Assembly (NCBI GenBank): GCA_010672585.1
Contig: JAAHGF010000029.1
Coordinates: 46,776-103,264, forward strand
Source: Okeania sp. SIO1I7
GTDB taxonomy: Bacteria; Cyanobacteriota; Cyanobacteriia; Cyanobacteriales; Microcoleaceae
DNA length: 56,489 nucleotides
Direction: 5' to 3'
In this document: one piece after another, positions 6,303-56,489 of the stretch
Numbering within the stretch: position 1 is the stretch's first letter
Layout of the letters: each line of letters opens with the position of its first letter
Position numbers and translations under genes: made by a program
The notes under the pieces: generated by a model
What the model was told of the DNA's origin: nothing
The model's input: the letters and a program-made list of their open reading frames with translations, nothing else
The model's database searches: none

Positions 6303-6713
6303 ATGAAAATTATACAAAAGTATATAATAGGTAAAACTATCGAAGTTGGTAGTGGCTTTGAATGGAGAGGTACAGGAAAAGAACCTCAGTGGAATAATCC
6401 TAAATCTACCAAAGCTTACGACCATATCGAACGGCATCATGGCCCTAAACTTAAATTGGAGGATTTTAGAGGGAGAATTGCTAGTACAAATACTAACCAA
6501 GGACAATGGTTAAACACACAAGACTGGGTAGAGGCAGAAAAATTTATCCCCAAATATTATGGTGAATATATAGTCGATTTTCAACGACCAATTGGTAGAG
6601 TTCATCATACTGATGGAACGGTAACAGAAAATGTCACTAGAGCTTTTATTATCAGAAACAAATATGGAACCCTCAAAACCGCCTATCCTGTTTTAAATAC
6701 TGACGATTTATAA
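6303..6713 (+). CDS. Small protein resembling a polymorphic-toxin C-terminal domain
   Basis: 136 aa from the ATG at 6303, chosen because AGGAG lies about nine bases upstream; the frame is open further (TTG 6234, ATG 6258). I do not recognise a named family. Its size, the motif AYDHIERHHGP followed by a basic DFRGR segment, SxxxxxQGQWLNTQDW and a C-terminal GTLKTAYPV resemble RNase-type toxin tips of contact-dependent or polymorphic toxins, often written with a D-H-x3-H-H-G core. It has no signal, delivery or pretoxin domain, so it would be an orphan tip. The next gene starts 22 bp downstream after AAAGGAG, is acidic and is the natural immunity candidate. It could instead be a non-toxic conserved hypothetical. 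Confidence 0.5.
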   Translation: MKIIQKYIIGKTIEVGSGFEWRGTGKEPQWNNPKSTKAYDHIERHHGPKLKLEDFRGRIASTNTNQGQWLNTQDWVEAEKFIPKYYGEYIVDFQRPIGRVHHTDGTVTENVTRAFIIRNKYGTLKTAYPVLNTDDL

Positions 6714-31590: not shown

Positions 31591-31821
31591 GTTTATTTTC
31601 GCTCCTTTGAGCTGAGTTGAATCTGTAATAAACTCATTTTCTATTATTTATTGGTAGAGCGCGAGATACATTTAGGGCTGAATTACTGCCCCAACTGCCC
31701 TTGACTAAAGGGTATAATTTAGTTAATAAACTATTCCAAAAATCAAATGCTTTATCTGCCCTTGTAGAAAAGTAATGATGATTTAAAATGTTATTAAATG
31801 CCAAATTTTCAGGATTATATT

Positions 31822-32757
31822 ATGGAAACAAATAGACCTCGTAGCGTTAGGGCAAATTACCAAGGAATAGAAAAACTTAAACAAGCACAGAAAGATAGAC
31901 GAGCTAAAAATGAAGGACGTTTAAGTTATGCAAAAATAGCAGAAAAAATTTATGTAGAAGAAAGCACAGTTAAGCGTTTTTTTAGAGGAGATAAAGTTTT
32001 CACAGAGAATGCTGAAATGATATGTGAAGTGCTAGAATTAACATTAGCTGAAGTTGTCGATATAGAAGATTATGATCAAAATGGAACGCAAATTACTTTG
32101 AGAGGCGATATTGATGAAGTTAAGTCACAAGTAGATGAAATACTTGAATTATTAAGAAAACAATCGGGAGATAAAACAATAACTATACGCATAATCAAAC
32201 CAGGTAGTGTCATTATAATTATAGATGGTTCTAATGAAGGATTGACACGAATTGAATCTCTATTTAAAGCCGGAGAATTACAGGAAATAGCAGGTTTTAA
32301 AGTAGAAGATATACGTCCAGAGTGGGAAGAACGACCAGTTAATTTGACTCAATGGTTTGATAATATCTTAACTACTGGATGGCAAGCAGCAAATCAATTA
32401 TTAACTTCCTCACAATTAGCATTAGTTAGAAGCGAAGAAATTAAAGCTGGAAAATTAATTAATTTACGAGCAGATATGTTAAGTCATGCTGTAGTTTTAT
32501 TGGTCAATTTAAGACGAGAAGATGATGAACTTCCTGAAGTAGAAATAACTTTACGGGTTTATCCCACTGGGGATGATGTTTATCTTCCTCCTAATTTGAA
32601 ACTTATTGTTTTAAGTGAAAATGAAATTTTTCAAGAAGTGACAGCTAGAAGTGAAGATAGGATTATTCAATGTCAACTTGAAGGAGAAGTAGGGGAAGAA
32701 TTTACGGTACAATTAGTGTTAGGTGAAGCTATAATTACAGAGGATTTTGTTATTTAA
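31822..32757 (+). CDS. HTH regulator fused to DUF1822
   Basis: 311 aa from ATG 31822, chosen because AGGA lies seven bases upstream and METNRPRSVRANYQG is the typical start of such HTH proteins; ATG 31798 is in frame. Residues 12-82 are a Cro/C1-type helix-turn-helix (LSYAKIAEKIYVEESTVKRF). Residues 90-165 form an alpha/beta module (TITIRIIKPGSVIIIIDGSN, EGLTRIESLFKAGELQEIAG) of a kind seen beside STAND and effector-associated proteins in cyanobacteria. Residues 172-311 are DUF1822, ending VQLVLGEAIITEDFVI. DUF1822 genes are often neighbours of CHAT-type giant proteins, as here (35347), so this may be the regulator or accessory of that gene, now separated by inserted DNA. Confidence 0.8.
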   Translation: METNRPRSVRANYQGIEKLKQAQKDRRAKNEGRLSYAKIAEKIYVEESTVKRFFRGDKVFTENAEMICEVLELTLAEVVDIEDYDQNGTQITLRGDIDEVKSQVDEILELLRKQSGDKTITIRIIKPGSVIIIIDGSNEGLTRIESLFKAGELQEIAGFKVEDIRPEWEERPVNLTQWFDNILTTGWQAANQLLTSSQLALVRSEEIKAGKLINLRADMLSHAVVLLVNLRREDDELPEVEITLRVYPTGDDVYLPPNLKLIVLSENEIFQEVTARSEDRIIQCQLEGEVGEEFTVQLVLGEAIITEDFVI

Positions 32758-33551: not shown

Positions 33552-34190
33552 AAATTTTTACTTTAAGTGCTTATGCAAAATTAATTGTATATTCTGTGCC
33601 AAAGTTTTTCCTATGGATTTTCTACTGCACTAAAACACTCATATAATTGTCATAAGCTTCTATTCAATAATTGATAATTGATAATGGATAATTGATAATT
33701 ACCTCTCCCTAAAACCGATAGGATTGAATAAAAGGAAAAAATTGATTTTTTTCCCCTTGAAAGGGGAGGATTTTTACCTGAATTATTAAATTATTGAATT
33801 ATTGAATTATTAATTATTCGGTAAGCATTTCCTGCGGACTGCTGCGCAAACAGCTATTAGCAGTCAGCTAGCCTCCTCCGGAAGAACTGCGTTAACAGCA
33901 ATAATACCCTGTGCTTAAGGACGAGGTTTAAATGAAAATAGACTTTGGAGCTGACTTTTGTAGCTAGATTTTTCGTTTCTCAATTAAATATTGCTTTTAT
34001 CACTCACTAAGAGCAATAGCTGAGAGCTGTTAGCGAAGATCCTCTGTTTGCGTAGCATTCCGCAGGAAAAGAGGCTAGCTGACGGCTGTTTGCGCAGCAT
34101 TCCGCAGGAAATGCTTACAGCTTCTATTTCTCACTATTTAAGTGCTTATGCAAAATTAATTACCTATTCTGTTGATTCCGTTCTACTAAA
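33552..34190. repeat. Repeat block with a 300-bp imperfect palindrome
   Basis: 33665-33820 is a family E relative (GATAATTACCTCTCCCTAAA, GATTGAATAAAAGGAAAAA, CCCTTGAAAGGGGAGG). The arms GTAAGCATTTCCTGCGGACT... (33821-33854) and their reverse complement at 34085-34118 match in 33 of 34 bases and continue inward imperfectly (CAGTCAGCTAGCCTC versus GAGGCTAGCTGACG). The loop is about 200 bp. No protein-coding frame. The same arm sequence makes a perfect small hairpin at 54382-54407. Confidence 0.8.
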
Positions 34191-34204
34191 CTTACCCAAA
34201 CTTA

Positions 34205-34313
34205 CCCAAAACATATTTTGAGCTTTGGAGCTAGCTTCCTGCTTCACAGAAGACCACTGACCGCAGTCTGTAACTTATCTTCTCCACAGGCTTAAAATCG
34301 CTTGGAACTCAAG
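34205..34313 (-). ncRNA. Candidate right end / guide-RNA region of the tnpB element
   Basis: The 110 bases after the tnpB stop codon (read on the minus strand) are GC-richer than surroundings and contain CAGACTGCGGTCAGTGGTC, TGTGAAGCAGGAAGCTAGCT and CCAAAGC, similar in layout to the structured 3' regions that yield the omegaRNA of TnpB and form the IS200/IS605 right end. The exact end could not be fixed. Confidence 0.5.
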
Positions 34314-35312
34314 CTACTGATACACATAGTTTTTCAAGTTGATAGCAGCATTCAAATCTCTATCAGCTTCAAAACCGCATTCACTACACTCATAAGTTCT
34401 CAAGTGTAACGGCATTTTCTGTTGATGCCCACAGTTTGAACAGATTTGAGAACTTGGATAAAATCTATCCGCTATGACTAATTTACTGCCGTACCATTCA
34501 CATTTGTATGTAAGTTGACGTTTAAATTCATAAAATCCACAGTCTGCTATGGCACTTGCTAATTTATGATTTTTGAGCATTCCACTTACATTCAAGTCCT
34601 CAATTACTATGGTGCTGTGGTTTTTAGCTAACCATGAAGTGAGTTTATGTAGTGCATCTGCTCTAATATCGGCTACTTTTTTGTGGACTTTGGCTAGTTT
34701 TTTTACTGCTTTGCGTCTGTTTTTAGAGCCAATAACTTTTTTGTTGACACGATTTTGATAACGAGTTAATCGTTTTTTGGCTTGCTTATAGGCTTTAACG
34801 TTAGTAAATTTCGTTCCATCGCTACAAGTTGCTAGAGTATTTATACCAACATCTACACCGATGATATCTCGTTCTTTAGCATTAGGAGTTGGTCGATAAT
34901 CATATTTAAAGCTGATGTACCAATTATTTGCTTTTTTTGAGATGGTGACATTTTTTACTGGTACAGATGGTAAGATTTCATAAGTTTTTACTATTCCTAT
35001 TCTGGGTAGTTTGATATAGTTTCCTTTCAGGATTTTAATACTTCCTTCTAGATAAAAACTGTCTTTTCTACCTTTTTTCTTGAATTTAGGAAATCCACGA
35101 AGAGAAATAGTTAAAAAGTTTTTGAATGCCCTTTCTAAATCTCTTAATGCTTGTTGTGGGGCACACTTTGATACCTCATAATACCACGGATTTTGAGATT
35201 TAACTTCTGCAACTAAACGCTTATGCAAAGTGATGGCACTAGGACGTTTTTTGGTTTTTTGGTACTCAGTAATACAAGTAGCTAATCCCCAGTTATAGGC
35301 ATGACGAGCCAC
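34314..35312 (-). pseudogene. tnpB: IS200/IS605-type TnpB nuclease gene, probably 5'-truncated
   Basis: 332 aa from GTG 35312. RuvC residues are present: Asp154 (IIGVDVGINTLAT), Glu238 (TIVIEDLNVSGM) and the Asp in EADRDLNAAINL (317/319); the zinc ribbon has Cys291, 294, 309 and 312. TnpB is an RNA-guided DNA nuclease that helps keep IS200/IS605 elements in place. Upstream of the GTG the frame still reads family-like residues (KVNNYQKTILAKHAG) for about 15 codons, but then passes into sequence belonging to the neighbouring CHAT gene with no start codon before a TGA near 35404. The first 10 or so residues of the family are missing. No tnpA is present. It may still be translated from GTG. Confidence 0.8.
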
Positions 35313-35346
35313 ACCTGCGTGTTTGGCAAGTATTGTTTTTTGGTAG

Positions 35347-38300
35347 TTGTTAACTTTTAATGCTGAAATTGCTCTAGCTTCTCCTAATTTTCAACGAGTT
35401 GATACGACGAAAAATTTAGACAAAAAAGATAAGGTAAAAATTTTAGTTATTTTGGGAGATGATGCGGGGACTGATGCTGATGAACAGGTAATTAGAGAAT
35501 TAATTCCTGATGCAGAAATTTGTTGGTTAATAGAACCTCAACGCTCCGAATTAGACGAACCTTTGTGGCAAAAATCTTGGGATATTTTATTTTTTGCTGG
35601 TCATGGCAAAACTAAAGATAATGGCAGTATTGGCACGATTCAAATTAATGGTCAAGATGTTTTGACTATTTCTGAAATAAAAAATCATCTTCTACAAGCT
35701 GTTAAGTCTGGTTTAAAATTGGCTATTTTTAATTCTTGTGATGGTTTAGGTTTGGCTTATCAATTGGCAGAAGGTGAGGATTTACATTTACCGCAAATTA
35801 TTGTGATGCGGGAAAATTTACCTGTGGCTATTGCTCCGCAGTTTCTCGAATTTTTTCTTAAAAATTATACTCAAGGTTTATCTTTATATAGTTCTTTGCG
35901 GGAGAGTCGGCAAAGGTTACAAATATCAGAAGAAAAATTTCCTTGTGTGAGTTGGTTGCCTGTTTTATGTCAAAATCCTGCGGAAATTCCTCCCCGTTGG
36001 TTCGAGTTGGGAGGAAAGATTCAGACTCCCTATAAAGGATTGAGTGCTTTTACTGAAAATGATACTGAGATATTTTTTGGCAGGAAAGTGTTGACTAATT
36101 CTTTATTATTAAAGCTGGCAAGGCAAAATTTAGTGGCTGTAATTGGTGCTTCTGGTAGTGGTAAATCTTCTTTGGTTGCTGCTGGTTTAATTCCTCAATG
36201 GTTGGCTCAAGGTACAGAAATTTTACCTCGTTTTTTGGTAAAAATTCGTCCTGGTTTTCCTCATCCTAATCCTTGGGAAAATTTGGCTGAGGAATTGGGG
36301 AAAATTTTACCTAATTTAACTACAAATAATAAATTTGTGGGAAATTTGGAGGCTAATTATGGGGAGTTAGCTAAATGTTTAACTGCCATTGTGCAAGAAA
36401 AGAATGGTTGTCAAATTTTGTTGGCAATCGACCAATTTGAAGAACTTTATACTTTATGTTCTGAGGAGAAACGTCGGTCATTTTTAGCAGGTTTGGTTGA
36501 TGCGGTTCGGGAAGAGAGTTGGAAGATTGTTTTAACTTTACGGGCAGATTTTTTATCTCAAGCTTTGGATGAAGATTTGGGTAAGATTTTTGATGAACGG
36601 GATAAGTTAATTACTCCTATGAATGATGAGGAGTTGAGGGAGGCGATCGCTCTCCCTGCTGAAAAGTTTGAGGTGGAATTTGCGGATGAGTTAATTAAGA
36701 GAATGATTCAAGATTATCGGCAAAATTCCGGTCATTTACCGATGCTGCAATTTGCTTTGGAGGAGTTATGGAAAAGGCAAAAATATGGGGTAATTTCTCT
36801 GGCTAGTTATGAAGAAATTGGGGGTTTAACTCAAGTTTTAGGGGATTATGCCGAAAAGATTTATGGTCTGTTAAGTCAGGAGGAAAAAGAGCAGGCGCGA
36901 TATATTTTTACTCAATTAGTACAACCTATAAGTCAGGAAAAATCGGGGGAAGTTAGTCGCATTGCTACTCGGAAAATTGCTACTTTTGCAGATATTGGCA
37001 AAGAAAATTGGCAGTTAGTAATTAAATTTGCCGACGAGCGTTTGGTGGTGACAAATAAGGAAAAAGATGTAGCTTCTGTAGAGTTGATTCACGAAGTTTT
37101 AATTACCGCTTGGAGTCGGTTAAAAAATTGGATAGAGCAAGATTGGGAATTTCGACGTTGGCAAGAGAAATTAAGGGATAATTTGAGTCAGTGGGAAAAG
37201 GAAAAGAAGGATGACTTTTTGTTGCAAGGAGGTTTGTTAAAGGAGGCAGAAAGTTGGTTGGAAAAAGCAGAGCAAAAAATTCCTGAGAAAGAGAGGGAGT
37301 ATATTGATAAAAGTAGGAAAAGACGAGAAAGAGAGCGGCAAAAACTTATTTCTGGGTTGACTGGTGGTTTGGTTATGGTGTCATTATTTGCTGTGGGAGC
37401 GGTGTGGCAATGGCAACGTGCGGAAAGACAAAGTTTGATTAATGAAGTAGATAGTTTGAGTAATTTAGCATTGAATCAATTTGAATCTGGGGAAGGTGGA
37501 ATTAGTGCTTTAATGACAGCGATGGATGCAGGGCAAAAGTTGAAAAAATTGGTTAAAGATGATGAAAAGTTGGGGAATTATCCTACAACTCGTTCTTTTT
37601 TAGCACTACAAACTATTCTTAACAACATAAAGGAAAAAAATGAGTTTATGAGCGGTAACCGGGGTAATAACACAGTTAGTCGAGCTATTTTTACTCCTGA
37701 TGGCAAACAAATTGTTTCGTCTAGTTTTAGAAAGGTAATAATTTGGAATTTAGCTGGTGAAAAGGTTAATGAGTGGGAAATACCTACAGAATTCTTTGAG
37801 AGTTATAGCAGCATAATAACAGATTTAGCAATTAGTCCAAATGGTAAATATATTGCCACTCTGACCAAAGGAGCTGTTAATATCTGGGATTTTTCTGGAA
37901 AAAATATAGCAAAAATAAAACCTGGAGCTGTTAATATCTGGAATTTTTCTAGAAAAAATAGAGCAAAAACAAAACCTAATGCCTCCAATAATTATCTTCC
38001 ATATTCAATTGTTAAATTCACACCGGATAGTCAATATCTTACTCTGTCATCAACAAATAGTAATAAGATACAGTTTTTTACTGTATCAGGTCATAAAGTT
38101 ATAGATTTAATAATTGATGGTGATAATAGCATTGTAGAGAGCTTAGAATTTACTCCTGATTCTGAAGAAATTGCCATAGGAAATAATTGGGGTATGGTGC
38201 AATTTTGGAGCTTAAAAACTCTCTACGATCCCTTACTTGGGCTTGAATCTTCTTTAGACTTGCCAAAAATGGATTGGGAAAAGACTAGAGAATTTAAAGT

Positions 38301-40236
38301 GAATACCCACAAAGTTACCAAAATAGCTATTAGCTCTGATGGACAACGATTATTAACTTTAGGGGTTGATGTCAATGCAGATAAAACTTCAGGTGTTGCG
38401 CCAAAACTATGGGATTTATCTGGGAAAAAAATTGCTGATTTTGGTTTTTATCAAAACAACCTTAACTTTTACTTTTGGGGTGCAGTTAGTTTTAGCCCTA
38501 ATAATAAAGAGATTGCCATAGCAATTTTGGGTGAAGGAGAAGTCAAATTTTATGATGCTCTATCAGGAAAACTTATTGCTCGAACAATAACAAATGTGGG
38601 CAGCGGTTATACTATAGACTATAGCCCAGACAGCAAGCTCATTATTTTGTCTGGAGTAACTGGAATGAAGTTACTATCAAGTAATGATTCTGGATTTGCT
38701 CCTATTGAATTACCATTTAACTATGCAGCAGAAACTCATAACATTCCGATAGAACTTGATTATAGTGCTGACGGTAAAAAGCTTGTTGTGATAAGTAAGC
38801 ATTATGATGATCGGCATAATTACATAGATGTTTGGGATTGGCAAAAAAAAGAAAAAAGAAGAATTGCTCTTAGTAAGAGTTATATAAAGAATGGAGAGAA
38901 GGAGATATGGATTCCTGATTTTGCTAGTGTAACTCCTGATGGTAAAAGCATAATTATTATTAACAACGAAGTCCTTAAAAAATTTGATTTAGAAGGGAAT
39001 TTAATTTCTCAATTAAGAACAAATTTGAATTCAGACGAAATAGCACTAGATGCTTGGGCTCAGGCCGGGTATATAGGAAATAAACATTATAGTTCTAGTT
39101 TTGATGGTAGTGTCGTCAGTACAATAGGGCTATCACTTTCTCCAGTTTATGGGTTAGCACGACCACTACGCTTATGGAATTTTTCGACGCAGCAAGTGAA
39201 GGAGTTTAATAGTAAATCTCTTTATACTGATCCACAACGGGTATTAGTTAGTCCAAATGGTAAATATTTTTGGAAAAGTTTATCAGGTGGAATTGGTCAA
39301 CTTTGGAATACTTATGGAAAATTACTCGATCCGTTGGATGTAAGTGCTAAATCCTCCTCAAATAAAAACAAAGTTTCAGCGTTAGCTATTTTATTAAATG
39401 GTGAGGTGAAAAAAAATCCGTTGGGTTATTGGCAGGTAGATATAGTTAGTGTCTTTGAAAATTCTACAGCAATGAAAGCAGGTTTAAGAAGTGGCGACAC
39501 AATTGTTGAAATAAACGGTCAAAAAATTCCAGGCGATCTAACTGAAATATACAATTTACTTAAAGGGGAAGCTGGTACTACTGTGAAAGTCAAAATTTTT
39601 AGTCCTGAAGAAGGAGATTTTAAGGAAAAGACAATTACTCGAGAGGAATTTATCCTTGATTTTAGCAGTTTTTCACTTTTGAGTGGAAATACAGCAAAAT
39701 TTAGCCCTGACAGTAAATATTTAGCAACATGGGGTGTAGGAAGTCAAAATTTATCCTTGAGAAATATCAAGACTAAGAAACTTGTTGAAATTAATAATCA
39801 AGGCGGAATTGTGGGTGTATTTTTCAGTCGTGATAATCAACTATTGGCAACAGTAGGTATAGATTATACAATCAAAATATGGGATTTTTCTGGAAAGCTA
39901 ATAAGCAATATTAAACTGGAACAAATTCCTGCAAATATGACTTTCAGTCCTGATAGCCAGCAAATTGCTATTTTAGGTCATCCCAATGAATTAAGTATCT
40001 GGAGTATTGACGGAAAACAAATTGCTAAATATACAGTTCCCGAATCAGACCAAACTAAAATAGTCTTTTCCCCCGATGGTAAATATATAGCAACTGGTCA
40101 AAGTAAAGTGTTTATTTGGCAGAATAAAAACTTAAACGAACTATTAGCAACAGGATGCGATTGGTTGCAAGAATATTTAACTACTCGCCCCGAAGAAAAA
40201 GAGAAATTAAAAGTGTGTCAAGAGGAAGTCAAATAG
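35347..40236 (+). CDS. CHAT protease-STAND NTPase-TM-WD40-PDZ giant protein, N-terminus truncated
   Basis: 1629 aa from TTG 35347. Domains: CHAT caspase-like protease (about 28-212) with catalytic His86 (FFAGHGKT) and Cys131 (FNSCDGLG); nSTAND-type NTPase (about 226-560) with Walker A GASGSGKSS (Lys273) and Walker B LLAIDQFEELY; helical linker; one membrane helix (about 667-690, GGLVMVSLFAVGAVW); WD40-like blades (about 770-1340); a PDZ domain (about 1345-1434: VSVFENSTAMKAGLRSGDTI, VEINGQKIPGD); then further WD40 blades to the end. STAND proteins with CHAT are conflict/suicide switches: the sensor opens the NTPase, which releases the protease. The usual N-terminal block of about 150 residues, whose end would be the 'NAEIALASPNFQRV' seen here at residues 5-18, is absent and is replaced by tnpB DNA. 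Expression is therefore doubtful. Confidence 0.82.
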   Translation: MLTFNAEIALASPNFQRVDTTKNLDKKDKVKILVILGDDAGTDADEQVIRELIPDAEICWLIEPQRSELDEPLWQKSWDILFFAGHGKTKDNGSIGTIQINGQDVLTISEIKNHLLQAVKSGLKLAIFNSCDGLGLAYQLAEGEDLHLPQIIVMRENLPVAIAPQFLEFFLKNYTQGLSLYSSLRESRQRLQISEEKFPCVSWLPVLCQNPAEIPPRWFELGGKIQTPYKGLSAFTENDTEIFFGRKVLTNSLLLKLARQNLVAVIGASGSGKSSLVAAGLIPQWLAQGTEILPRFLVKIRPGFPHPNPWENLAEELGKILPNLTTNNKFVGNLEANYGELAKCLTAIVQEKNGCQILLAIDQFEELYTLCSEEKRRSFLAGLVDAVREESWKIVLTLRADFLSQALDEDLGKIFDERDKLITPMNDEELREAIALPAEKFEVEFADELIKRMIQDYRQNSGHLPMLQFALEELWKRQKYGVISLASYEEIGGLTQVLGDYAEKIYGLLSQEEKEQARYIFTQLVQPISQEKSGEVSRIATRKIATFADIGKENWQLVIKFADERLVVTNKEKDVASVELIHEVLITAWSRLKNWIEQDWEFRRWQEKLRDNLSQWEKEKKDDFLLQGGLLKEAESWLEKAEQKIPEKEREYIDKSRKRRERERQKLISGLTGGLVMVSLFAVGAVWQWQRAERQSLINEVDSLSNLALNQFESGEGGISALMTAMDAGQKLKKLVKDDEKLGNYPTTRSFLALQTILNNIKEKNEFMSGNRGNNTVSRAIFTPDGKQIVSSSFRKVIIWNLAGEKVNEWEIPTEFFESYSSIITDLAISPNGKYIATLTKGAVNIWDFSGKNIAKIKPGAVNIWNFSRKNRAKTKPNASNNYLPYSIVKFTPDSQYLTLSSTNSNKIQFFTVSGHKVIDLIIDGDNSIVESLEFTPDSEEIAIGNNWGMVQFWSLKTLYDPLLGLESSLDLPKMDWEKTREFKVNTHKVTKIAISSDGQRLLTLGVDVNADKTSGVAPKLWDLSGKKIADFGFYQNNLNFYFWGAVSFSPNNKEIAIAILGEGEVKFYDALSGKLIARTITNVGSGYTIDYSPDSKLIILSGVTGMKLLSSNDSGFAPIELPFNYAAETHNIPIELDYSADGKKLVVISKHYDDRHNYIDVWDWQKKEKRRIALSKSYIKNGEKEIWIPDFASVTPDGKSIIIINNEVLKKFDLEGNLISQLRTNLNSDEIALDAWAQAGYIGNKHYSSSFDGSVVSTIGLSLSPVYGLARPLRLWNFSTQQVKEFNSKSLYTDPQRVLVSPNGKYFWKSLSGGIGQLWNTYGKLLDPLDVSAKSSSNKNKVSALAILLNGEVKKNPLGYWQVDIVSVFENSTAMKAGLRSGDTIVEINGQKIPGDLTEIYNLLKGEAGTTVKVKIFSPEEGDFKEKTITREEFILDFSSFSLLSGNTAKFSPDSKYLATWGVGSQNLSLRNIKTKKLVEINNQGGIVGVFFSRDNQLLATVGIDYTIKIWDFSGKLISNIKLEQIPANMTFSPDSQQIAILGHPNELSIWSIDGKQIAKYTVPESDQTKIVFSPDGKYIATGQSKVFIWQNKNLNELLATGCDWLQEYLTTRPEEKEKLKVCQEEVK

Positions 40237-40672
40237 TTAGAAAATCCATAGTTGATAATTAATTATTCAAACTTGCCCAAAAAATAAATGGAACCTCTAC
40301 CCAATAACTGGGCAGATATTCAGCCCGATAAAATATACCAAATAACCAACAGTCAGTTAGTATCTTTTAGCAAAGAGCAAATACAACTGGGGATAAAATA
40401 TGACCAAAATAACAAACATTTAAAAGCTATTGAAAAAGGAATAGTTCCCCCTCGCGGTAATATTGGACTTGTTGCTTCCGAAATAGAAGTTTTGACCTAA
40501 AATCAAAAGTAAAAGGAGGCGATCGCCAATTTCACGGAATAATTATAGATGAATTTTTACACTTTCCTGGTTTTATAACAGAACATTAATTATCAATTAA
40601 CTATGACTCAAATAGAATTAAAAAATAACCCTGTTTGGCAAGATTTAACAGAAGTAATAGAAAATTATATAC
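40237..40672 (+). other. Short coding-like stretches after the CHAT gene
   Basis: 40288-40500 reads as a 70-aa protein (MEPLPNNWADIQPDKIYQIT) with no family; 40517-40590 carries a frame GGDRQFHGIIIDEFLHFPGF ending in a stop; 40603-40716 is a 37-aa frame starting [20 protein letters not shown]. All three look like debris or small genes of the accessory island; none could be assigned. The first is the most gene-like. Confidence 0.4.
40288..40500 (+). CDS. Small hypothetical protein, 70 aa
   Basis: ATG 40288, 51 bp after the CHAT gene on the same strand. No recognised domain; central PDKIYQITNSQLVSFSKEQI and RGNIGLVASEIEVLT. Composition is soluble and mildly acidic. It may be a truncated or unassigned member of the conflict island; reality uncertain. 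Confidence 0.4.
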   Translation: MEPLPNNWADIQPDKIYQITNSQLVSFSKEQIQLGIKYDQNNKHLKAIEKGIVPPRGNIGLVASEIEVLT

Positions 40673-41296
40673 TTGAAATATTCTGTAATATTGACTCTAT
40701 TTTTATTGCTACTTAAGTCGAGCGATCGCCCCACAGAAAAAGAGAATGAGCAGCAAATTATCGCAGCCCATCGACAGGTTGCTCTGGAGTCTCAACTACG
40801 CAATGGTCAGATCACAATGAAAGATTTCATTCAAGGTTTGTTGCTTTCTGAGTCATTCCGGCGACTGATCTATGATGGTAACAGTAACTATCCTTGTGTT
40901 GAGCTTTGTATTCAAAGGGTTTTAGGACGCCCTGTCTATAACAATCAAGAGAAACTTGCCTGGTCTATTGTATTGGCAATAAAAGGACTTCAGGGTTTTG
41001 TCAATGACCTGTTAAACAGCGAAGAATATGATCAGCATTTTGGCTATAACTTTGTTCCCTACCAACGTTGCCGAATTTTACCTCAACGCACTCAGGGAGA
41101 GCTGCCTTTTGCTCGGATGGCTCGTTACGACAGCTATTACCTAAAGCAGTTATATCAAACAGGGCAACTAAGGAAATTTGATCCAGGTATGTTAGATAGT
41201 AGCGCTGATGTTTATCGCAAAGCTCTATTATTTGTGGGAATACTCTCTGTTGCAGTTTTATTAGTTACTCTGACTCTAGTACTTTCGCCCAAATAA
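40673..41296 (+). pseudogene. CpcL-like membrane-anchored phycobilisome linker, N-terminus missing
   Basis: From residue 24 ([20 protein letters not shown]) to about 155 the protein is a phycobilisome rod-core linker domain (CpcG/CpcL type): [60 protein letters not shown]-like ending. After a linker, residues 181-204 ([20 protein letters not shown]) form a C-terminal membrane helix, the hallmark of CpcL (CpcG2), which ties small rods to photosystem I. The first 55 or so family residues are absent; the frame begins with TTG 40673 and a non-homologous hydrophobic stretch ([16 protein letters not shown]). It is either a truncated relic or an unusual short linker with a new start. Confidence 0.75.
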
Positions 41297-52117: not shown

Positions 52118-54112
52118 CTAATTGATTGCTATTGCTACTTTCAACCAACTATCAAATAATTCTTGATGATTGACAACCCATTCTTCAGCATGACGGCGAA
52201 TATCTACAGGTTTATTCTCACCATTTTTAACTTTTTCTTGTTGGAGGTTGACATCCTGAAGCGGAATTTGAATCTGTTCAAATAAACTTTTAGCAACTGG
52301 ATTATCCTGCAAAAAATTCTTATTTGCTAATATCCCGACTCTATCGACTGGAACACCAAGATTTTTTCCATTCACTGAAGTATCTTTTTCAGTCAAGTCT
52401 CCCTGACTTTCTAATAAGGATGTAAAAGGAACACCCAACCATTCCACATCCTCCTCAACTTTTAAAATTGAAGCTAACCAATGAGGAGTCCAAGTAAAAT
52501 AAATAATAGGTTTACCTTGCCGATAACGGGTCAAAGTATCTACCATTAAAGAAGAATAATCTCCTTCAATTTGCTCAACAGTATCCTCAAGTCCGTAAAC
52601 CTGTAAATGATGATTTATTACTCTTTCACACACCCAACCAGCAGTACAACCAATTAAATTTGCCTTACCATCACCATCTGAATCAAAAAGTTTCGCAATT
52701 TTTGGATCTTTGAGTTGTGATAAATCAGTAATATTATATTTCTCAGCCGTCTGTTTATCTATCTGATACCCCGCTTGACAATCAGAAATCAGCGTTCCAA
52801 CGCGTTCTAATTTATCTTCTCCACCATTTTTTTCAAAAAATTCTTTGTGCGCAACTTGCCAATGGACACCAGTAAAGTCCACATCATTATTACTAACAGC
52901 AATGTGCATTGCCGGAACATTCAATTGTTTTGGTCTTTTCACCTGATAGCCTAATTTCTCCAGCCCAATATTCACAATTTCTGTCACAAATATACCGGAT
53001 GTTTCCAGACCAGAAGTAGACCGGACAATTATTCCATTTCCTGGTAATGCTTCATTTTTTGAGTTGATAGTAGTTTGGGACATTAATTGCCAGCTAGTAA
53101 CACCAACCAGCAAAGCAACCAAAATACTTATCCCTAAAGTTGTGCCTTTCTTTTTGGAAAAGCCACGAGACCGCCACCATCCAATTAAACCTCGCTCTTG
53201 CCAAGAAAGAACATTTCCCTGACTAACAGATTGAGTGATACGGTCGAGCATCACTGCAATTAAAACAATACCCAAACCACCTACAGCAGCTAGTCCGACA
53301 TTTAAACGACCCAGACCTTGCAATACCATTTGTCCTAATCCCTCTACCCCAATCATTGAGGTGACAACTGACATTGATAAGGCCAACAAAATTGCTTGAT
53401 TTGTACCAGCCAGAATAGTAGGCAAAGCTAAAGGAATTTGCACTTCTAATAAAACTTGTTGGCGAGTTGAGCCAAAAGCTAAAGCTGCTTCTACTGCTTC
53501 TGGAGATACTTGCCTAATGCCCAGATTTGTCAGACGAATTAGAGGGGGGACTGCAAAAACAAATGTGGCAATAATACCTGAAACTTCTCCAATGCCAAAC
53601 AACATTACTACAGGTACTAGGTAGACGAAACTCGGAAGAGTTTGCATCGCATCTAGGAGAGGACGTAATATTTTGTTGAAGCGATCGCTAATGGCGCTAA
53701 TAATACCTAGAGGAATACCCACTAACATACAAAATATTACGGCAGTTAGAACTAGGGCCAGGGAAACCATTGCTGCTTCCCAAGCGCCACAAAAACCAAT
53801 TATACAAAGAGCGATGATGCTGTAGATGGCTATTTTTCTTCCTGCTAATTGCCAGACCAGCAAAGCAATAATTATCAGAAAAATTAAGGGGGGAATAGCT
53901 AAAAAGCCAGATTTAATTATTTCCAGAGTATTTTTTATGGGTAAGCTGATAGCTTGAAATAGGGGACGAAAGTTATCAACTAGAAAATTAACAGCAGTGT
54001 TAACCCATTCGTCTAGGGGTAAAGTATAAGATTCAAATGGGTTAAATAAAATTTCTAATCCTCCTTGAGTTTCAGCTATGAAGTGGTGAGGTAAATAATT
54101 CAAAATCAACAA
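52118..54112 (-). CDS. Betaine/proline-type ABC transporter permease-substrate-binding fusion (copy 1)
   Basis: 664 aa. Residues 1-320 are a ProW/OpuAB-like permease with about seven helices; the EAA loop reads EAALAFGSTRQQVLLEVQIP followed by LALPTILAG. A last helix (TLGISILVALLVGVTSWQLM, about 327-346) leads to a ProX/OpuAC substrate-binding domain (about 365-650) outside the membrane. Its aromatic residues that commonly cage quaternary ammonium ligands are visible in GVHWQVAH, GYQID, GCTAGWVCE and YFTWTPHW. Such systems import glycine betaine or proline as osmolytes, fitting a marine cell. The ATPase gene is not in the window and may lie beyond 56489. The Asp-rich DSDGDGKANL looks like a calcium-binding loop. 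Confidence 0.9.
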   Translation of the reverse strand: MLILNYLPHHFIAETQGGLEILFNPFESYTLPLDEWVNTAVNFLVDNFRPLFQAISLPIKNTLEIIKSGFLAIPPLIFLIIIALLVWQLAGRKIAIYSIIALCIIGFCGAWEAAMVSLALVLTAVIFCMLVGIPLGIISAISDRFNKILRPLLDAMQTLPSFVYLVPVVMLFGIGEVSGIIATFVFAVPPLIRLTNLGIRQVSPEAVEAALAFGSTRQQVLLEVQIPLALPTILAGTNQAILLALSMSVVTSMIGVEGLGQMVLQGLGRLNVGLAAVGGLGIVLIAVMLDRITQSVSQGNVLSWQERGLIGWWRSRGFSKKKGTTLGISILVALLVGVTSWQLMSQTTINSKNEALPGNGIIVRSTSGLETSGIFVTEIVNIGLEKLGYQVKRPKQLNVPAMHIAVSNNDVDFTGVHWQVAHKEFFEKNGGEDKLERVGTLISDCQAGYQIDKQTAEKYNITDLSQLKDPKIAKLFDSDGDGKANLIGCTAGWVCERVINHHLQVYGLEDTVEQIEGDYSSLMVDTLTRYRQGKPIIYFTWTPHWLASILKVEEDVEWLGVPFTSLLESQGDLTEKDTSVNGKNLGVPVDRVGILANKNFLQDNPVAKSLFEQIQIPLQDVNLQQEKVKNGENKPVDIRRHAEEWVVNHQELFDSWLKVAIAIN

Positions 54113-54587
54113 AATCGACTATCTCCTAGTAATGTTGGTTTAATCCAAATTTTGATTTGGTTGCCCCAAACTTGTAAGAACATCAACTGCTTCTACCATA
54201 ACTTGAAATTCTTTTTTTGTGCTTAACCACTGCTAGGGGAAACCTTGTTTATAAAAGTCAAACAAAAATATTCTTTAGGCAAATATAAGTGTTTACTATC
54301 AGTTGCATCATAATTTTTATTCAATTTCCCCAAACTTGTAATTACATCATAGAATTCTGAATTAGTAAATTTACCTTTCATTCGTAAGCATTTCCTACGG
54401 AATGCTTACTTTAATTTTAAATTCTACACTTTAAATTCTAAATTACTTACCGAAAAAATGTGGTATAAAGCCTCCCCTTTTAAGAGGATAATAAAGAATA
54501 ATTTTCCTTTGAGTAAATCCTTTTTTTTTAAAGGATAGGTAATAATTAATAATTAATAATTAATAATTAATAATTAATTGTTAACAT
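54113..54587. repeat. 475-bp spacer between the two fusion genes
   Basis: 54382-54407 is a perfect hairpin GTAAGCATTTCC/GGAATGCTTAC. 54455-54540 is a family E copy shared with 47865-47960. 54541-54582 is an (AATTAAT)n stretch. 54113-54300 has no frame. Confidence 0.65.
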
Positions 54588-56489
54588 CTAACTTATTGCT
54601 CTTTCCCACCAAATATCAAATAATTCTTGATGATTAGTCACCCATTCTTCAGCATGACGACGAATATCTTCAGGTTTATTTTCCCCATTTTTAACTTTTT
54701 CCTGTTGAATATTAACATCCTCCATAGGAATCTCAATTTGTTCTAATAAACGTTGAGCAACTGGGTTAGCCTGCAAAAATTCCCTATTAGCTAATATCCG
54801 GATATTATCAATAGCAAAACCAAGATTTTTACCATCCCATGAAGTCTCTTCTTCCGTGAAATTTTCCATAGTTCCTAATAAGGATGTAAAAGGAACATTC
54901 AACCATTCTACATCTTCTCCTTCTCTTAAAATAGAGGCAGACCAATGGGGTTTCCAGGCAAAAAATAGAATTGGTTCTCCTTGACGATAACGAGCTACAG
55001 TGTCTGCTAATATCGCAGAATAATCTCCTCGAACTTGCTCAACAGTATCCTCAAGTCCGTAAACCTGTAAATGATGAGTGATAGTTTTTTCACATATCCA
55101 ACCAGAAGTACAACCAATTAAATTTGCCTTACCATCACCATCCGAATCAAAAAGTTTAGCAATTTCTGGGTCTTGAAGTTGTGATAAATTAGTAATGTTG
55201 TATTCCTCAGCAGTTTTTTTATCTATTTGATACCCCTGAGTAGAATTAGAAATCAGAGTTCCTAACCGTTCTAATTTTTCTTCCCCACCATTATCGTCGA
55301 AAAAACCTTGGTGGGCAACTTCCCAATGAGCTGTAGTAAAATCTAAATCTCCATTACTAAGAGCAATGTACATTGCTGCAAAATTCAGTTGTTTTTGATC
55401 TTTCACCTCATAGCCTAATTTTTCCAGTCCCATACTCACAATGTCTGTGATAAATACACTATAGGTTGACGAACTAGAAGCTGGATGAACTACTGTTCCT
55501 TTCCCTGGTAATGGTTCTTCTGTTAAGTTGGTATTTGTTTGAGACATTAATTGCCAACCTGTCACACCTACTAGCAAAGCAAGCACGATAGCTATCCCTA
55601 AAGTTATACCATTACGTTTGGAAGGCTTACGAGACCGCCACCATCCAATCAAACCTCGCTCTTGCCAAGAAAGAACATTTCCCTGACTAACAGATTGAGT
55701 GATACGGTCGAGCATCACTGCAATTAAAACAATACCCAAACCACCTACAGCAGCTAGTCCGACATTTAAACGACCCAGACCTTGCAATACCATTTGTCCT
55801 AATCCCTCTACCCCAATCATTGAGGTGACAACTGACATTGATAAGGCCAACAAAATTGCTTGATTTGTACCAGCCAGAATAGTAGGCAAAGCTAAAGGAA
55901 TTTGCACTTCTAATAAAACTTGTTGGCGAGTTGAGCCAAAAGCTAAAGCTGCTTCTACTGCTTCTGGAGATACTTGCCTAATGCCCAGATTTGTCAGACG
56001 AATTAGAGGGGGGACTGCAAAAACAAATGTGGCAATAATACCTGAAACTTCTCCAATGCCAAACAACATTACTACAGGTACTAGGTAGACGAAACTCGGA
56101 AGAGTTTGCATCGCATCTAGGAGAGGACGTAATATTTTGTTGAAGCGATCGCTAATGGCGCTAATAATACCTAGAGGAATACCCACTAACATACAAAATA
56201 TTACGGCAGTTAGAACTAGGGCCAGGGAAACCATTGCTGCTTCCCAAGCGCCACAAAAACCAATTATACAAAGAGCGATGATGCTGTAGATGGCTATTTT
56301 TCTTCCTGCTAATTGCCAGACCAGCAAAGCAATAATTATCAGAAAAATTAAGGGGGGAATAGCTAAAAAGCCAGATTTAATTATTTCCAGAGTATTTTTT
56401 ATGGGTAAGCTGATAGCTTGAAATAGGGGACGAAAGTTATCAACTAGAAAATTAACAGCAGTGTTAACCCATTCGTCTAGGGGTAAAGT
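54588..56489 (-). CDS. Betaine/proline-type ABC permease-substrate-binding fusion (copy 2; N-terminus beyond window)
   Basis: The frame is open to the window edge, corresponding to position 54025 in copy 1, so about 29 N-terminal residues are outside. From the edge to about 55630 the DNA equals copy 1 with one mismatch noticed (55649 versus 53185), hence the permease parts are practically identical proteins. The substrate-binding halves differ clearly (for example AHWEVAHQGFF, GCTSGWICEK and FFAWKPHWSA), though every cage aromatic is kept. This points to a tandem duplication whose permease part was recently copied or converted while the binding domains diverged, possibly for different ligands. 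Stop at 54588. Confidence 0.9.
   Translation of the reverse strand, partial: TLPLDEWVNTAVNFLVDNFRPLFQAISLPIKNTLEIIKSGFLAIPPLIFLIIIALLVWQLAGRKIAIYSIIALCIIGFCGAWEAAMVSLALVLTAVIFCMLVGIPLGIISAISDRFNKILRPLLDAMQTLPSFVYLVPVVMLFGIGEVSGIIATFVFAVPPLIRLTNLGIRQVSPEAVEAALAFGSTRQQVLLEVQIPLALPTILAGTNQAILLALSMSVVTSMIGVEGLGQMVLQGLGRLNVGLAAVGGLGIVLIAVMLDRITQSVSQGNVLSWQERGLIGWWRSRKPSKRNGITLGIAIVLALLVGVTGWQLMSQTNTNLTEEPLPGKGTVVHPASSSSTYSVFITDIVSMGLEKLGYEVKDQKQLNFAAMYIALSNGDLDFTTAHWEVAHQGFFDDNGGEEKLERLGTLISNSTQGYQIDKKTAEEYNITNLSQLQDPEIAKLFDSDGDGKANLIGCTSGWICEKTITHHLQVYGLEDTVEQVRGDYSAILADTVARYRQGEPILFFAWKPHWSASILREGEDVEWLNVPFTSLLGTMENFTEEETSWDGKNLGFAIDNIRILANREFLQANPVAQRLLEQIEIPMEDVNIQQEKVKNGENKPEDIRRHAEEWVTNHQELFDIWWERAIS

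Follow-up and report, generated by a model that had tools for sequence, protein, structure and literature searches.

A tandem WD40 propeller sensor is coupled to a STAND switch and a caspase output in the Apaf-1 apoptosome. In DegS and HtrA, an extracytoplasmic PDZ domain reads peptide C-termini and switches a protease, and the PDZ domains of C-terminal processing (CTP) proteases bind C-termini. The Tricorn protease carries propellers, a PDZ domain, and a protease in one chain, with the PDZ in the protease core and no STAND NTPase. Closer to the locus described here are bacterial conflict systems in which, according to passages of Kaur et al. 2021 (PMC8195603), TRADD-N genes lie beside a gene with a constant N-terminus of EACC2 and caspase domains and a variable C-terminus, with PDZ, STAND, and CHASE2 among the C-terminal domains listed. 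DUF1822 genes are described in related neighborhoods in the same passages.

The window, that is, the whole stretch of 56,489 nucleotides of Okeania sp. SIO1I7 DNA that was analyzed, contains a receptor gene with a partner gene upstream of it (Table 1). The receptor has a caspase-superfamily domain (CHAT, with His86 and Cys131), a STAND family match with a Walker A motif, and a highly variable C-terminal region beginning with a drop in identity at about residue 750. Because the upstream gene encodes TRADD-N and DUF1822, the locus is similar to the caspase/TRADD-N conflict systems of Kaur et al. 2021. As those systems are set out in the passages of PMC8195603, the caspase domain, the variable C-terminus, and the TRADD-N neighbor are held in common, whereas here the PDZ lies between WD40 blades, TRADD-N and DUF1822 occur in one protein, and the window copy is missing the N-terminal constant region. 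A sequence-only reading of the window had known of no description of the architecture. This was correct only in part: passages of PMC8195603 report PDZ in the variable C-terminus of TRADD-N-adjacent caspase proteins, but the literature searched, which included passages of PMC7159879 and PMC10907252, gave no case of a PDZ within a WD40 array. The PDZ-in-WD40 receptor can be placed close to the caspase/TRADD-N systems, as a variant of them. When PADLOC anti-phage models were searched, the receptor gave only a 24-residue match (17.9 bits, to mad3) around the Walker A motif, and the partner gene gave none. No close PDZ-bearing paralogue was found in the same genome, where the best match to another receptor was 37% over the NTPase.

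Table 1. Features of the receptor locus in window positions
Feature	Position	Strand	Basis or remark
Partner gene, TRADD-like_N (49.8 bits)-DUF1822 (80.2 bits), ends ITEDFVI	31798..32757	+	Profile search
TnpB insertion element	34176..35361	-	Own TnpB start gone at junction
Open frame (1,629 aa), CHAT-nSTAND1-TM-WD40-PDZ-WD40 protein	35347..40236	+	5'-truncated; TTG first codon directly after stop
Start of homology to full-length orthologue L115 (its residue 159); insertion element before	35362..35364	+	tblastn
CHAT (caspase-like) domain, residues 37-196, His86 and Cys131	35455..35934	+	Whole in comparison with L115
nSTAND1 NTPase, residues 228-623, Walker A Lys273	36028..37215	+	Pfam
Single predicted membrane helix, residues 668-686	37348..37404	+	10 K/R in the preceding 20 residues and 2 in the following 20
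WD40 blades N-terminal to PDZ (variable part)	37678..39336	+	Pfam, AlphaFold2 model, identity comparison
PDZ domain, residues 1342-1436	39370..39654	+	Pfam and AlphaFold2 model
WD40 blades C-terminal to PDZ, four strand sets, the last with three strands	39676..40146	+	Pfam and model
C-terminal motif; its Cys1604 and Cys1624 are the only cysteines downstream of the TM helix	40156..40218	+	Sequence

The CHAT-nSTAND1-TM-WD40-PDZ-WD40 architecture is real, conserved, and shared. CHAT scored 30.1 bits in the whole protein (Pfam, residues 37 to 196; cutoff, 24) and 36.0 bits when searched alone, and nSTAND1 scored 354.8 bits (Pfam, residues 228 to 623), with the Walker A sequence GASGSGKSS. The protease with His86 and Cys131 and the STAND-type NTPase with Lys273 had thus been assigned correctly from the letters, as had the single membrane helix and the WD40 blades; WD40 models matched on either side of the PDZ (Pfam). 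Blade counts by sequence pattern were too noisy for use. The C-terminal cysteine pair was spaced by 20 to 21 residues in 15/15 helix-bearing proteins.

For the PDZ domain, earlier proposed at residues 1345 to 1434, the whole protein matched PDZ_6 at 46.3 bits (Pfam, 1367 to 1417; cutoff, 27) and PDZ_2 at 31.4 bits. The PDZ stretch alone matched PDZ_6, PDZ_2, and PDZ at 47.9, 36.9, and 24.4 bits, respectively, every one above its cutoff, with PDZ_Tricorn just below (24.5 bits; cutoff, 25). PDZ-type strands and helices were found at 1342 to 1436 in an AlphaFold2 model, so that the fold was supported by both the HMM search and the structure prediction. The earlier assignment to the HtrA/CTP type agreed with the closest models, which were those of C-terminal processing proteases. 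The best NCBIfam match was TIGR00225 (C-terminal processing peptidase) at 45.9 bits over 1312 to 1434, far below its whole-protein cutoff of 218.6; matches to CTP models were limited to 1311 to 1447, around the PDZ, and no S41 catalytic domain was found in the protein. Among solved chains, the stretch matched HtrA/DegQ, RseP-type, and CTP PDZs as well as syntenin and GRASP, with 4ynn_A as the best (E = 1.5e-8). CTP-sized frames made up most of the hits listed when the PDZ was searched in cyanobacterial genomes. Core PDZ residues were conserved among the copies.

The PDZ is therefore closest by sequence to those of the CTP proteases (CtpA, CtpB, and Prc; S41), but the receptor differs from these in having no S41 domain, in carrying the PDZ within a propeller array, and in the loss of the loop glycine in the window's family. 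Relative to DegS and HtrA, the protease is caspase-like and predicted to lie across the membrane, with an NTPase between. Relative to Apaf-1, the protease is in the same chain, and a membrane helix and a PDZ insert are present, while relative to Tricorn, the PDZ is in the propeller and a STAND NTPase is present.

The placement of the PDZ between WD40 blades, also claimed earlier, was seen in the models of the window protein and of its relative L083. In the window model (residues 746 to 1611, 10 sequences; pLDDT, 75.9; pTM, 0.54), the blade before the PDZ had three assigned strands with the fourth unassigned, and the blade after it was complete. The L083 model had 14 strand sets, with the PDZ between sets 9 and 10, both complete. 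The pTM values of the models were low (0.47 to 0.54). In a Foldseek search, the L083 model matched tandem propellers at an rmsd of 13 to 27 Å, matches that do not fix the mutual placement of the propellers, and Apaf-1 (3shf and 3sfz) ranked behind the bacterial WD40 protein 2ymu. By eye, from the sequences, the PDZ followed about blade 13 of 21 in L047, blade 5 of 14 in L082, and blade 2 of 14 in L118, none of which is a propeller boundary if the propellers are seven-bladed. Therefore, it appeared that the kind of site, a blade-to-blade loop, is constant and the blade number is not; to the earlier question of whether homologues keep the PDZ at the same point, the answer was yes for its location inside the WD40 array in several species but no for the blade junction, which varies. 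In the close homologue L049, the PDZ was absent as a clean gap, and the flanking blades aligned.

Cyanobacterial genomes were searched in three sets of 148, 388, and 388 (about 714 distinct), and a PDZ inside a WD40 array was found in 18 of these about 714 genomes (G000, G057, G074, G104, G219, G320, G424, G581, G585, G587, G599, G611, G623, G628, G634, G639, G640, and G649). The PDZ-in-WD40 array is a reusable module. Its N-terminal partners were CHAT-nSTAND1 (window family, L046, L047, L081, and L118), caspase C14-nSTAND1 (L048), TIR with no NTPase match (L082), TPR-nSTAND1 (L083), AAA_35 (L124), and nSTAND1 with no protease match (L114). The TIR protein, at 6658 to 9735 of L082, reads TIR-TM-WD40-PDZ-WD40 (TIR_2, 98.4 bits), the same sensor with a TIR effector. 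The C-terminus of the window's family was detected at ≥63% identity over about 180 residues in 9/61 genomes, plus a 233-aa piece in G599, and the PDZ was kept in 9/9 family copies. L118 is located on plasmid Cy782205 of Gloeothece verrucosa PCC 7822. A plasmid search with a PDZ-blade query returned 198 records, of which the best match (H11) was examined, so further plasmid-borne cases may exist.

The window protein was compared domain by domain with the four Okeania-group copies covering both CHAT and nSTAND (L115, L117, L122, and L123). Identity over CHAT and nSTAND was 91 to 94% (dS, 0.09 to 0.20), as against 41 to 58% in the WD40 part before the PDZ (dS, 0.79 to 1.18), 46 to 51% in the PDZ (dS, 0.52 to 0.88), and 61 to 84% in the blades after it (dS, 0.17 to 0.80). 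L116, which covers part of nSTAND only, gave 89% in nSTAND, 55% in the sensor, and 49% in the PDZ. Among the Okeania-group copies, the drop at about residue 750 coincided with the start of the sensor. The dN/dS was 0.43 to 0.76 in the PDZ (eight comparisons) versus 0.14 to 0.37 in CHAT and nSTAND of the same relatives, and PurB of the same genomes was 93 to 99% identical. High dS confined to one half of the gene speaks for the variable half having been replaced by recombination, as it would appear from these substitution rates, rather than altered by amino-acid selection alone. As a control for variability, one PDZ-less caspase C14-nSTAND-WD40 protein of the same genome (L253) was followed in three comparisons. 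Against L255 (G581), identity fell from 89 to 100% to 70 to 81%, a weaker drop than that of the PDZ family against the same genome (76 to 100%, then 30 to 68% up to residue 1450). Against L256 (G634), no drop was observed, the WD40 part being better conserved, and against L261, 75 to 95% in the N-terminal part was followed by 39% or less in the C-terminal part. With a weaker drop, none, and a full swap, the constant/variable split is no fixed rule for such proteins. L255 and L261 are neighbors (G581:C27:3728-11343) that both match L253 over about 720 N-terminal residues (86%); their C-termini differ, which makes them another constant/variable pair.

The window copy of the receptor is beheaded, having lost its start codon and the 158 residues that precede CHAT. 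The same-genus orthologue L115 has 1,753 aa and starts MGKLV. With its residues 1 to 230 as the tblastn query, residues 159 to 230 matched the window from 35362 at 93%, and residues 1 to 158 had no credible match in the window. The lost piece was also not found elsewhere in the genome, where there was only a 34% paralogue. The region of L115 directly before CHAT had no Pfam match; its equation with EACC2 would follow from position. The TnpB element has nine near-full copies elsewhere in the genome at 84 to 86% and two at 77 to 81%, and these align to about 35361. All six other copies inspected have a TnpB start codon in frame beyond the point matching 35361, whereas the window passes directly into CHAT-gene sequence without one, so the receptor and TnpB genes, head to head, both lack starts. 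The missing TnpB start and the missing receptor N-terminal piece speak against a simple transposon insertion and make a deletion at the 35361/35362 junction more likely; a misassembly at this point may also account for it. A plasmid search with the junction region gave 41 records, none covering 80% of the region.

In-frame start candidates before codon 154 were TTG and GTG only; codon 154 is the first ATG and lies past the catalytic cysteine. The window copy is therefore probably non-working, without residues 1 to 158 and a credible start, and we consider it quite probable that this copy is a pseudogene or remnant from which no working receptor is made, its promoter probably also lost at the TnpB junction. 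Such a reading concerns this copy only and is compatible with the others considered below. Against it, 1,629 codons are open, CHAT is whole, and dN/dS relative to L115 is 0.22 to 0.50 outside the PDZ and 0.76 in it; by these signs the loss, if it is one, is recent. The CHAT profile match begins at 101 in the window, but a truncated CHAT was ruled out because the full-length L115 itself matches only from 82. In L115, L119, L121, L122, and L123, the frame runs open from an MGKLV-like N-terminus. The G640 copy (L116, 3789 to 10236) is likewise broken, in the NTPase; it has an OrfB_IS605 frame upstream, and its contig carries purB and the partner gene in the order of the window.

The sequence-only reading had also suggested binding of exposed C-termini. 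The central Gly of the carboxylate-binding loop (GxG motif) was by eye present in 9/9 PDZ-in-WD40 copies outside the window's family and in 0/9 copies within it (the window and eight close relatives). The family loops read LAI, LAV, LPI, VAI, IAI, or PSV, whereas a full GxG was found in 7/9 nonfamily copies (YAGVGL, FSGIGV, YIGLGV, FTGAGL, YTGIGI, IIGVGL, and FSGIGI), the remaining two having TVGI; CTP loops take the form SGVGI and similar. The suggestion may thus hold for the other copies, but at the level of sequence the lost loop glycine is what argues most against simple recognition of C-termini in the window's family. In a tree of 58 PDZ domains, 18 PDZ-in-WD40 rows were split from 40 CTP rows by a branch with support of 67, which is compatible with a single origin without establishing it.

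A helix between the NTPase and the sensor was predicted in 15/19 proteins, including the PDZ-less L049, flanked by 5 to 11 K/R in the preceding 20 residues and 1 to 4 in the following 20. Positive charge marks the cytoplasmic side under the positive-inside rule, so the sensor would lie outside. No helix was predicted in L048, L114, L124, or L120 (L120 is truncated by the end of its contig), so an outside location is not general. The earlier idea that the PDZ feeds the protease with substrates agrees poorly with a predicted topology that places the PDZ outside and CHAT inside. Poverty in cysteines was rejected as proof of an outside sensor, because the helix-less L048 also has only three cysteines after residue 1141.

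A TRADD-N-DUF1822 gene lies upstream in the window, L046, L081, and L115, and a DUF1822 gene without a TRADD-N match in L047 and L118 (as L171); homologous partner genes are upstream in L116/L126, L121, and L122. No DUF1822 gene was found in the stretches examined around L048, L082, L083, L114, L123, and L124. Identity of the partner to that of the window was 87% in G640 and 60 to 68% over the last two thirds in G581, G623, G611, and G634. The Okeania-group genome G631 had neither the receptor nor a close partner gene (best, 33%). Elsewhere in the neighborhood, an XisH and XisI pair (PF08814 and PF08869; 32782 to 33551) lies directly after the partner and before the receptor gene. Directly after the receptor, at 40661 to 41296, a phycobilisome linker is encoded (PF00427, 119.9 bits); it has a hydrophobic stretch at its C-terminus, in which it is like CpcL-type linkers, and an unusual-looking N-terminus. 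Two adjoining large frames on the minus strand (52118 to 56327) share the C-terminal motif RHAEEWV.NHQELFD and are probably tandem paralogues.

The domains and their order, the PDZ between blades, the partner gene, the sharing of the module, and the constant N-terminal and variable sensor halves were observed here. Our best reading of them, to which we give somewhat less than an even chance, is that of a peptide sensor on the outside that controls a caspase-like switch on the inside, with the topology, ligand, NTPase assembly, and protease target all putative. In an intact receptor, the CHAT protease and nSTAND1 switch would be cytoplasmic, with one helix crossing the membrane to a two-propeller WD40 array in the periplasm or thylakoid lumen and the PDZ inserted in a blade-to-blade loop of that array. 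The ligand of the PDZ/propeller surface would be a peptide exposed on a misfolded, processed, or foreign protein, probably as a hairpin or free C-terminus; its binding would lead to NTPase assembly and firing of the protease, with the TRADD-N-DUF1822 neighbor as the likely target or relay. This reading is supported by PDZ scores of 46 to 48 bits and the fold in both models, by the similarity to CTP PDZs with the loop Gly in all nonfamily copies, and by retention of the PDZ in every family copy despite fast divergence of the region. The charge bias of the helix, the upstream TRADD-N-DUF1822 or DUF1822 genes, the divergence of the sensor relative to CHAT/nSTAND and PurB, and the joint absence of receptor and partner from G631 also favor it. 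It is weakened by the glycine missing throughout the window's family, the four proteins without a helix, the six loci where no DUF1822 gene was found, the low pTM values, and the missing N-terminus of the window copy.

The degenerate carboxylate loop of the family and the higher dN/dS of the PDZ would also be expected if the domain were an internal clamp or spacer that keeps the propellers off, binds no outside peptide, and varies by drift. We regard this as unlikely: the loop glycine is intact in the other copies, none of the nine family copies has lost the PDZ, and the remainder of the array is retained in L049, which has no PDZ, so that the fold does not depend on this domain. Somewhat less probable still is a passenger domain without a function of its own, in which a CTP PDZ was once caught up by chance in a WD40 array and then carried along with the array by shuffling. 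The presence in few of the genomes searched and the position of the PDZ-in-WD40 rows on one side of a branch, with support of only 67, would suit it; the conserved core residues, the retention within the family, and the occurrence behind at least five kinds of N-terminus argue against it. Least probable, by a little, is docking of the receptor's own partner, in which the PDZ would bind the hydrophobic C-terminus of the TRADD-N-DUF1822 protein and so join target and protease. The C-terminal residues of the partner are EDFVI in the window, L115, L126 (the same gene as L116), L121, and L122, EEFVI in L047, ERFVV in L046, and EYFTI in L081, so that the ending is hydrophobic at 8/9 PDZ loci tabulated, the L118 partner ending EKFGLE. 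However, an F-x-[VIL] ending is general in DUF1822 (27/42 distinct rows, 19 of them not beside a studied PDZ gene, including those of the PDZ-less L049 and the window-genome genes L172 and L173), and the predicted topology puts the PDZ and the partner on opposite sides of the membrane. Being so general, the -EDFVI ending was rejected as a specific PDZ ligand, and the partner-ligand idea is kept only as a rival. The receptor's own C-terminus was likewise rejected, as the ends KVCQEEVK, HLCDGIGTKRR, and RRICN are not hydrophobic.

Carried further, the outside-sensor reading leads to a transmembrane immune-type receptor whose PDZ-propeller would detect exposed peptide termini of exported proteins that are foreign or damaged and fire the inner caspase-like protease, its sensor replaced or recombined between related species with the output half kept constant, in the manner of NLRs. 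This extended proposal is no more probable than the clamp. Little is known about the signals that bacterial caspase-like STAND receptors detect. The constant/variable split of this receptor points to an arms race, and the same sensor behind CHAT, caspase C14, TIR, and AAA_35 suggests one class of signal with several outputs. The PDZ gives a handle on the ligand, since peptide libraries allow its ligand class to be screened directly.
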